Position numbers and translations under genes: made by a program. From Kaiparowitsia implicata GSE-PSE-MK54-09C (GTDB taxonomy: Bacteria > Cyanobacteriota > Cyanobacteriia > Elainellales > Elainellaceae), in NCBI GenBank assembly GCA_019359435.1, contig JAHHHI010000067.1, positions 62,001 to 126,000 of the forward strand: a stretch of DNA of 64,000 bases, read 5' to 3'. Shown here piece by piece: positions 28,710-32,508 of this stretch; the stretch's first letter is position 1, and each line of letters opens with the position of its first letter. The notes under the pieces were generated by a model. It was not told the DNA's origin, ran no database searches, and saw only the letters and a list, made by a program, of their open reading frames with translations.

Positions 28710-30329
28710 GTGACTGTTCAACTCGACCATACGTCTCAAAGCAACGCTGCCCCTGCAGCCACTGGGCCACTCACCCAGCAGATGATTGTCATTCTTGACT
28801 TCGGCTCTCAATATTCAGAATTGATCGCCCGACGCATCCGCGAGACACAGGTTTATTCTGAGGTCATTTCTTACCGAACTCCAGTTGAGCAGTTGCGGAG
28901 TCTTAACCCCAAAGGCATTATCCTCTCGGGTGGCCCCAGTTCTGTTTATGACGAGGGTGCGCCCCACTGCGATGCTGAAATTTGGAATCTGGGCATTCCC
29001 ATTTTGGGTGTGTGCTACGGCATGCAGCTGATGGTGCAGCAGTTGGGCGGCGGCGTTGAGCGGGCCGAGCGCGGTGAGTATGGCAAAGCCTCGCTGATGA
29101 TTGACGACCCAACCGATTTGCTGACCAATGTGGACGATGGCACCACCATGTGGATGAGCCACGGCGACTCAGTCGCGGCAATGCCACCCGGCTTTGAGCG
29201 GCTGGCCCATACCGACAATACGCCTGTTGCGGCGATCGCCCATCATGAGCGCAAGCTCTACGGCGTGCAGTTCCACCCCGAAGTAGTGCATTCTCTCGGG
29301 GGTTTGGCGCTGATTCGCAACTTTGTGTATCACATCTGCGACTGCGAGCCCACCTGGACGACCGAAGCCTTTGTCGAAGAGGCGGTGCGCGAAATCCGCG
29401 GCAAGGTTGGCGAAAAGCGCGTGCTGCTCGCGCTGTCGGGCGGGGTTGATTCGTCTACGCTGGCATTTTTGCTGCATCGCGCCATTGGGGATCAGCTCAC
29501 CTGCATGTTTATCGATCAGGGCTTCATGCGGAAGAATGAGCCGGAACGGCTGCTGAAGCTGTTTCATGAGCAGTTTCATATTCCAGTGCAGTATGTAAAT
29601 GCGCGCGATCGCTTTTTGACATCCATTGATGGGATTGCCGATCCCGAAGAGAAGCGCAAGCGCATCGGCCATGAATTCATCGCCGTATTCGAATCAGAAT
29701 CTCGACGGCTGGGGCCGTTTGACTACTTGGCGCAGGGCACGCTATATCCCGATGTGATTGAGTCTGCCGACACCAATATGGACCCCAAAACCGGCGAGCG
29801 GGTGGCCGTAAAAATCAAGAGCCACCATAATGTGGGCGGCTTGCCAAAGGATCTGAGATTTAAGCTGGTAGAGCCGCTGCGCAAGCTGTTTAAAGACGAA
29901 GTGCGAAAGCTGGGGCGCTCCATTGGGCTGCCAGAAGAAATTGTGAACCGCCATCCATTCCCTGGGCCGGGTTTGGCGATTCGCATTTTGGGCGAGGTGT
30001 CAGAGGAGAAGCTAGAAATTCTGCGCGAAGCCGACTATATTGTGCGGCAAGAAATCAACCGCCATGATGTGTATGCCGATTTCTGGCAAGCGTTTGCGGT
30101 GCTGCTGCCTATTCGCAGTGTGGGCGTTATGGGAGATCAGCGCACCTATGCTTACCCGATTGTGCTGCGGTTTGTGTCGAGCGAAGACGGCATGACGGCA
30201 GACTGGTCGCGGGTGTCTTATGACCTGCTGGAGTTGATTTCTAACCGCATTGTGAACGAAGTGCGCGGGGTGAACCGAGTCGTCTACGACATCACGTCTA
30301 AACCGCCTGGCACCATCGAGTGGGAATAG
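28710..30329 (+). CDS. guaA: GMP synthase (glutamine-hydrolysing)
   Basis: 539 residues, slightly longer than E. coli (525) because of an N-terminal extension. It aminates XMP to GMP with ATP and glutamine. The class I amidotransferase domain shows GVCYGMQLM with the catalytic cysteine and FHPEVVHS with the catalytic histidine. The ATP pyrophosphatase domain has [11 protein letters not shown] (P-loop) near residue 242. The C-terminal dimerisation domain ends [19 protein letters not shown] as usual. GTG at 28710 was used; a later start would trim only the poorly conserved tail [16 protein letters not shown]. Confidence 0.97.
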
Positions 30330-30723
30330 TTTGACGGGCGCTCAAGCCTCCTGATGCATCCTTCATGCTCGAAGCGTGGGATGGAGTGGTGCTGAGTGCA
30401 GCTCTATTCGATAACGCGGATGGTTTGTGGCCAAATTGGGGATGACTTCATAAAACGGGTGTACCACTTTTCCACAAAATTCTGTGGAAAAGTGGTAGCT
30501 TGCTGTGGAAAACTGCCCTAAAGTCAACAAAATTGTGGAAAACGTTCTGCAACGTGAGTTCAATTGCGTTGTTTTAGCTCTACGCTACAGGACTGAAACA
30601 ACGCTAAATCGTGTTGCCTGTGTCGTGAGCAGCACGGCTTTGGGAATTTGCCGAATTAACGGTTCTGTAAGTTTGCCTAAATTGGGGGCAGAGATGAGCC
30701 GACAATGAGGCCGGAGCTAAAGC
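30330..30723. other. Intergenic region between convergent guaA and ABC exporter
   Basis: About 390 bp holding the DnaA-box cluster. The rest shows no supported gene; a 67-codon frame at 30505-30708 overlaps the DnaA boxes and has no domain. An AT-rich unwinding element is not obvious, though the stretch around 30520-30600 is moderately AT-rich. Confidence 0.5.
30462..30542. promoter_or_regulatory. Cluster of four perfect DnaA boxes (candidate origin or DnaA-binding locus)
   Basis: The 9-mer TTTTCCACA, the cyanobacterial DnaA box consensus, occurs at 30468-30476 (plus) and, as TGTGGAAAA, at 30483-30491, 30504-30512 and 30534-30542 (minus). The first two form the arms of a perfect 15-bp inverted repeat (30462-30476 and 30483-30497). 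All lie between guaA and an ABC exporter gene. Four exact copies in 75 bp are very unlikely by chance. Whether this is the replication origin or a DnaA-titrating or regulatory site cannot be told from sequence alone. Confidence 0.75.
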
Positions 30724-32508
30724 CTAAAGGCTCATCCCCTGATACAGGCGGGCGTAGAATCCCTGTGCGGCGAGTAGGGCCTCGTGGGTGCCGAGTTCAA
30801 CCAGGTTGCCGTTATCGAGTACGGCGATTTGTTCGGCCCGCTGAATGGTGGACAGGCGGTGCGCGATGATCAGGGTCGTGCGATCGCACTTTAGGTGATC
30901 CAGCGCCTCTTGCACCAAGCGTTCCGAGACAGTATCCAATGCGCTCGTCGCTTCGTCCAGAATCAGAATGTCTGGATTTTGCAGCAGAACTCGGGCGATC
31001 GCCAGCCGCTGTCGCTGCCCGCCTGAGAGCAAAATGCCGCGATCGCCCAGCGGCGTGTCCCACCCTCGGGGCAACTCTGCAATAAACTCCCACGCATGGG
31101 CGCGTTTAGCAACATCCAGCAGTTCCCCATCCCCCACGGTATCGCAGCCATAGGTGACGTTTTCTCGCACCGTGCCGTTGAACAAAAACGTATCTTGGCT
31201 GATGATGCCCATCGAGCGCCGCAGCGATCGCACCTCAAACTCGCGGAGGTCGCGGCCATCCAACAGAATGCGGCCCTCAGTTGGATCATAAAATCGAGGC
31301 AGCAGTTCCCCCAGGGTCGATTTGCCCGCACCCGACTTGCCCACCAGCGCTAGGGTCGTGCCCTTGGGGATCTCTAGCGAAATAGACCGCAGCACCTGTT
31401 CCGCCTGCCCTGGATAGGTGAAGAACACCTGCTCAAACTGAATGCTTGTTTTTAACGGGGTGTAGAGAACACTGCCATTGGCCATGAGGGGCTTATCGTT
31501 GCGGCGCAAAAAAGCGGTGGCGATGTCGATGCTGGCGATCGCGTTGGCGTACTGATTACGCGCTCCGTTGAGCTGGGCAATCAGCGGCAGCAGCCGAAAA
31601 ATGAGTAGCAGGTAGGTGAGCAGCACCGTAGAGGCCAATTCTACCTGCTGCATGAGAAACAGCCGCCCCACAATCACCACGGCGATCAGCGCTATCACCC
31701 CCGCCACTTCACTCACAGGGCCAATCACCGAGAAGCTGACGAAGGATTGGTAATCGGCCTGTTCGCGATCGCGCATGAGCTGCCGCAGGGTGATATATTC
31801 CTGCTCTTCGCTGGCGGTGGCCCGCACCAATCGCATGCCGTTGAGCACATCCAACAGGCGCATGGTGTAGTCGCGAGAGGCGTCTGAGAGCTGCGTCCCA
31901 AACTGCTTTGCCCGCACCAGACTGAGCTGATTGGCGAGCATCACTAGCCCTAGCATCGTCCCCGTGACCAGCGTCAACTGCCAAGACAATACCAGCAGCA
32001 GCACCCCAAACACCAGAATGGTGATGGCGGTGGTGAGCGATCGCACGGCAATTGTAATAGCTAGCGCTGCTCGGTTTAGCTCCGCGTTCATGCGGTTCAC
32101 AATATCGCCCGTGCCCTCCCGAGTGAAGTAATCCAAATCCACTTCGAGCAGCAACCGTAGCCCCGACTCCCGCAGGTCGATTGCCATCAGGCGCTGGAGC
32201 CAAGCCGACACCGCCATGCTGGCGAAAATTGAGCCATTTTTTAGCACAATCAGCACCACAATTGCGAGCGTGATTGCGACCAGCCGCCACGGGTCGGGAA
32301 TTCCCTCGAACGGAGCAAACAGTCGCGCGAGCACCGGCACATTGGTTAAGGAATCAGGGGTTTGGCCTAAAAAATTGAGCAGCACGGGCACAATCATGGC
32401 GGTGCTCACGCCGTTGAACACGGCACCCGAAAACCCCAGCACTACGGTCAGCACCACCCAGCCCGGGTATTGACGCGCGGTTTGTAGCAGAAGAGATTGA
32501 GACGGCAT
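30724..32508 (-). CDS. ABC exporter, fused permease and ATPase (HepA/MsbA-like)
   Basis: 594 residues. The N-terminal ~330 residues contain six membrane helices of a type IV exporter. The C-terminal nucleotide-binding domain has Walker A LVGKSGAGKST, signature LLSGGQRQRLAIARVLLQNP, Walker B DILILDEATSALD and H-loop AHRLST. It probably exports a lipid, polysaccharide or peptide as a homodimer. Similarity to HepA of heterocystous species is from memory and does not define the substrate. It is monocistronic and converges on guaA across the DnaA-box region. Confidence 0.93.
   Translation of the reverse strand: MPSQSLLLQTARQYPGWVVLTVVLGFSGAVFNGVSTAMIVPVLLNFLGQTPDSLTNVPVLARLFAPFEGIPDPWRLVAITLAIVVLIVLKNGSIFASMAVSAWLQRLMAIDLRESGLRLLLEVDLDYFTREGTGDIVNRMNAELNRAALAITIAVRSLTTAITILVFGVLLLVLSWQLTLVTGTMLGLVMLANQLSLVRAKQFGTQLSDASRDYTMRLLDVLNGMRLVRATASEEQEYITLRQLMRDREQADYQSFVSFSVIGPVSEVAGVIALIAVVIVGRLFLMQQVELASTVLLTYLLLIFRLLPLIAQLNGARNQYANAIASIDIATAFLRRNDKPLMANGSVLYTPLKTSIQFEQVFFTYPGQAEQVLRSISLEIPKGTTLALVGKSGAGKSTLGELLPRFYDPTEGRILLDGRDLREFEVRSLRRSMGIISQDTFLFNGTVRENVTYGCDTVGDGELLDVAKRAHAWEFIAELPRGWDTPLGDRGILLSGGQRQRLAIARVLLQNPDILILDEATSALDTVSERLVQEALDHLKCDRTTLIIAHRLSTIQRAEQIAVLDNGNLVELGTHEALLAAQGFYARLYQGMSL

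Follow-up and report, generated by a model that had tools for sequence, protein, structure and literature searches.

The region behind guaA in Kaiparowitsia implicata GSE-PSE-MK54-09C carries a cluster of DnaA boxes that, judging from its sequence and its recurrence in relatives, is probably a conserved non-origin DnaA-binding array that would hold DnaA or alter its nucleotide state. We describe this array within a 64,000-nucleotide stretch of the genome (the window, on contig C72) and compare it with guaA loci, replication origins and box clusters in other genomes.

DnaA boxes behind guaA

The array lies between two convergent genes and includes four boxes, two of which are part of an inverted repeat:

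28710..30329, plus strand: guaA (GMP synthase; NF000848, 800 bits), 3' end toward the array
30462..30497: perfect 15-bp inverted repeat round boxes 1 and 2 (arms 30462-30476 and 30483-30497, 6-nt loop)
30468..30476, plus strand: DnaA box 1, TTTTCCACA, exact match; faces box 2 head-to-head, their starts 15 bp apart
30483..30491, minus strand: DnaA box 2, exact match; first tandem box, 21 bp to box 3
30504..30512, minus strand: DnaA box 3, exact match; 21 bp past box 2
30534..30542, minus strand: DnaA box 4, exact match; 30 bp (about three helical turns) past box 3
30724..32508, minus strand: ABC exporter gene, MsbA/HepA-like but below those cut-offs; convergent with guaA

Exact matching of TTTTCCACA confirmed the original prediction of one plus-strand and three minus-strand boxes at 30468, 30483, 30504 and 30534, with zero further copies in the 64-kb window; four boxes within 75 bp have a chance expectation of about 3e-9. 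The 15-bp inverted repeat with two boxes as its arms and the position between convergent guaA and an ABC exporter were likewise as predicted. The site is also, as stated, not beside dnaA or dnaN, the latter being on contig C55 and an intact dnaA on another contig. Across the 6.72-Mb genome there are 61 exact copies of TTTTCCACA versus 39 of the reversed control pattern, and two or more close-set exact boxes occur at only three sites in the assembly: dnaN (five), the guaA site (four) and upstream of hemJ/thiC (two). Boxes 2-4 form a cluster of same-direction DnaA boxes outside oriC, and the 21 bp between boxes 2 and 3, the commonest spacing among relatives, is also that of a box pair in the genome's own oriC (C55:189832/189853).

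A DnaA-binding role for the boxes is well supported, as the oriC of this genome has the same 9-mer and the same 21-bp spacing. Binding of cyanobacterial DnaA to boxes of this type is on record (PMC4674748, PMC7198777), and domain IV of Cyanothece DnaA gives footprints on TTTTCCACA oriC boxes (PMC4674748). Because both box and spacing are identical to those of oriC, DnaA is the likely ligand of the array.

If transcribed, the inverted repeat would form a strong hairpin. We looked for a terminator-like T-run after it and detected none at the guaA site, so a terminator reading was rejected; an Rfam search at the site gave no match. The extension of the inverted repeat outside boxes 1 and 2 is not conserved; the perfect 15-bp repeat is a local feature, and general conservation is limited to the tandem minus-strand boxes. 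A dispersed repeat of about 110 bp also lies between genes in the window, at 30541-30690, with its best-matching core at about 30551-30661. It has two inverted repeats and a good RNA fold (z -2.8) but no Rfam match, and about 40 other places in the same genome match it at 69-83% identity.

Conservation and helical phasing

In Cyanobacteriia, tandem TGTGGAAAA boxes lie 32-713 bp behind guaA, in a single orientation throughout, with a period of 19-22 bp (also 11 and 30-31 bp). Many of 30 relatives found by GuaA alone carry such boxes shortly after guaA, and 25 of 26 genomes match the pattern TGTGGAAAA-N10..14-TGTGGAAAA, whereas the reversed control gave no match in any of the 26. Among 146 Cyanobacteriia genomes we counted 66 triple arrays; 29 of these, in 29 genomes of several families, are situated 32-713 bp 3' of guaA, against 0.02 expected, and all 29 share one orientation. 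The box cluster is thus phylogenetically conserved outside oriC.

For an unbiased set, 48 guaA loci were fetched regardless of boxes. In 29 of them at least two boxes follow guaA within 900 bp on its 3' side, and in none are there two on its 5' side (0/48); box density is 2.27 per kb over those 900 bp, 0.096 per kb 5' of guaA and 0.013 per kb in the gene. Same-strand spacings in this set are 11 bp (six cases), 19-22 bp (52), 30-31 bp (four) and 43 bp (one); with 62 of 63 falling at 11, 19-22 or 30-31 bp, the boxes are spaced by whole helical turns. Box pairs at oriC in these genomes likewise favor 9-11 and 21 bp. The spacer sequence between boxes is not conserved. The layout in the window, 21 then 30 bp, reappears as 21 then 31 bp in three other genomes (G126, G138 and G151), while the plus/minus 15-bp pair of boxes 1 and 2 is found, among the arrays listed, only in G008 and L172 and so is not a general feature. 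Three loci (L065, L332 and L333, from G020, G043 and G070) have more elaborate guaA-side arrays of six boxes, in which a plus-strand pair spaced 11 bp apart faces four boxes on the minus strand.

The array is not universal, given that it was not found in 19 of the 48 guaA loci, some of which carry one beside a TIGR04376 gene instead, and that the sampled genomes of families f2, f5, f14, f17 and f31 have no triple array, as counted for exact boxes with narrow spacing only. Only two of the 146 genomes are missing dnaA, one of them belonging to f31. Neither has a triple array, but most dnaA-positive genomes are equally without one, so the comparison does not bear on a tie between dnaA loss and array loss. 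The distance from array to oriC is variable: about 35 kb (G009), 66 kb (G016), 0.57 Mb (G008) and 2.44 Mb (G002).

Genomic address and a second array

A scan of public genomes, a non-random sample in which all counts are lower bounds, returned at least 117 loci. Among the matches listed, the array is on the 3' side of guaA in at least 24 loci, of a CDF transporter gene in at least 34 and of a TIGR04376 gene in at least seven. The arrangement guaA > array < CDF occurs in at least eight of the listed loci and guaA > array < TIGR04376 in at least four, and in both the array is intergenic, between 3' ends. The listed matches further include a class 5' of DUF2811/hemJ (at least 15 loci), dnaN loci (at least four) and unclassified loci (at least 45, many of other phyla); hemJ lies beside an array plus CDF in at least four. 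The CDF assignment was made by reading the sequence of the array neighbor, a protein of 300-350 aa that appears to be a CDF cation transporter.

In the family to which the window belongs, six genomes have no array next to guaA but one behind the TIGR04376 gene instead, in one case 3.5 kb from guaA. The window retains the guaA half of the recurrent address, and its ABC exporter holds the place that a CDF or TIGR04376 gene has in relatives. The simplest history is a single array between convergent genes whose neighbors were later reshuffled, with the ABC exporter now the second neighbor in the window.

A second cluster outside oriC is present in the same genome at C78:10760-10835 (L032), between thiC and hemJ and upstream of hemJ, and consists of an exact pair at 21-bp spacing together with near-matches. 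An array in this position, on the 5' side of DUF2811-hemJ, recurs in other cyanobacteria; it is a second element, distinct from the guaA-side array.

Boxes of this kind also occur in other settings. Plasmid pSOE2 of Candidatus Pantoea edessiphila (L181) carries TGTGGAAAA in 17 exact copies, spaced in steps of 21 bp, at both ends of a 4.4-kb record, resembling iterons built of DnaA boxes. In Picosynechococcus sp. PCC 7117, which we take to be closely related to Synechococcus sp. PCC 7002, a triple array with spacings of 21 and 20 bp (L198, 1633-1682) is found at a different address. Replication in PCC 7002 is reportedly DnaA-independent, and the PCC 7117 array offers a tractable place for asking about the role of DnaA there.

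Alternative explanations

The original prediction left the function of the site among origin, DnaA reservoir and DnaA-controlled regulatory site. Four clustered perfect boxes could indicate a chromosomal origin, and the array shares with cyanobacterial oriC the TTTTCCACA box and the 21-bp pair spacing (PMC4674748). However, the genome has a separate oriC at dnaN (C55:190212), with five exact boxes upstream (C55:189832-190018) and, just upstream of the gene, a DnaA-trio tract, CTACTACTA, and an AT-rich stretch (72.5% AT). Own-genome skew was computed on contig C55 and the window of this 109-contig assembly; cumulative GC skew on the 370,563-bp contig C55 is lowest at 190,294 and climbs from there on, placing the origin just within dnaN. 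No dnaN adjoins the guaA site, and the 600 bp around it contain neither a DnaA-trio nor a stretch of comparable AT content (at most 65% AT per 40 bp); the skew minimum sought at the boxes, at about 30.5 kb of the window, is not there. Known cyanobacterial origins are mostly dnaN-linked and have the same box (PMC4674748), and a separate dnaN with boxes upstream is present in 26 of 26 genomes examined. GC skew sampled in the single-contig relative G008 (20 x 20 kb) is irregular and places no origin. The dnaN-linked cluster and its coincident skew minimum refute the origin part of the prediction, leaving it extremely improbable, whereas the reservoir or regulatory part is strengthened by a phased array kept behind guaA in many genera.

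DnaA bound at the array could instead regulate or insulate its neighbors (guaA read-through or the convergent gene), thereby coupling a gene of nucleotide synthesis to replication state. Other bacteria use DnaA as a transcription factor (PMC7198777), among named neighbors guaA is the most constant in the 146 genomes, box orientation relative to it is invariant, and a hairpin of boxes 1 and 2 could also stop transcription; we nevertheless consider such a role unlikely, as the array is 3' of genes, often convergent ones, no promoter-like or terminator-like site was found at the window locus, and many relatives have kept the array beside the CDF or TIGR04376 gene rather than beside guaA. A DARS-like element, in which a head-to-head pair followed by tandem boxes reactivates DnaA through ADP release, is quite improbable. 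Box 1 (plus) and boxes 2 and 3 (minus) do reproduce the orientation pattern of the Escherichia coli DARS core, and their head-to-head spacing of 15 bp is close to the 14 bp of DARS1 and DARS2, but boxes II and III are separated by 12 bp in either E. coli locus versus 21 bp in the window (14/12 versus 15/21 overall), and DARS2 requires IHF and Fis. The exact head-to-head 15-bp pair is found in few relatives and is not enriched over 43 arrays, so it was rejected as a general DARS-like feature; with the spacing mismatch, this is why we do not file the window array as a DARS. It is very unlikely that the cluster arose by chance, as a fortuitous hairpin, or as part of the dispersed repeat, which begins just past the boxes: genome matches to the repeat start at query position 102 or later while the boxes span positions 29-103, and the boxes are conserved and phased in other genera.

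Comparison with known systems and proposed role

Like datA of E. coli, the guaA-side array is a non-coding DnaA-box cluster outside oriC, and the essential boxes of datA also share one direction, permitting head-to-tail DnaA contacts (PMC5742627). The two differ in that datA needs IHF and a looped layout, whereas the guaA-side boxes are 20-22 bp apart, and in that datA is oriC-proximal while the distance of the array to oriC is not conserved. In 13 cyanobacterial genomes neither IHF-alpha (TIGR00987; HU-like matches only) nor Hda was found over cut-off, so IHF dependence of the datA kind is not indicated, the E. coli mechanism is not simply transferable, and any catalytic role of the array would need to be IHF-independent. 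Closest in kind are the extra-origin clusters of DnaA boxes in Bacillus subtilis and Streptomyces coelicolor, which repress untimely initiation and are cited as datA analogues (PMC5742627). The guaA-side family is set apart by its address (guaA/CDF/TIGR04376) and by a period of two turns.

As its flanking genes have their 3' ends toward it, the array most likely has DnaA, and not a promoter, as its target; it is probably a depot or switch that restricts the DnaA available for starting replication, and would work in the manner of datA or the B. subtilis clusters. DnaA, whose binding we infer from the identity of the boxes to those of oriC, would bind as monomers head to tail on boxes whole helical turns apart, on one face of the DNA, and so form an oligomer like that on paired oriC boxes. 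This would keep DnaA from oriC, and the array may also stimulate hydrolysis or exchange of the DnaA-bound nucleotide, the outcome being that initiation is limited per chromosome copy. Reservoir and nucleotide-state control are inseparable by sequence. Several observations count against a depot or switch: in a polyploid cell the absolute amount of DnaA that four boxes can take up is small, the array is not universal, and its distance to oriC is not fixed. The loci datA, DARS1 and DARS2 carry a large share of the titration power of the E. coli chromosome (PMC12371093), so loci of few boxes can matter.

In Synechococcus elongatus, DnaA adjusts to cell volume how many chromosomes replicate, and it binds oriC less in the dark (PMC6478999); in species where DnaA is dispensable, its role is described as unclear (PMC7198777). 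We found no report of such a guaA-side DnaA array in the literature searched. A conserved, precisely phased array at a fixed address provides a concrete element for deleting, moving and multiplying. Tentatively, many cyanobacteria may have up to three DnaA addresses (oriC, the guaA-CDF/TIGR04376 array and the DUF2811-hemJ array), and with no Hda or IHF, phased arrays alone might control DnaA activity and set how many initiations occur per cell volume in these polyploid cells, a scheme that we regard as possible but doubtful. If it is true, these arrays would be an IHF-independent counterpart of the datA/DARS system.
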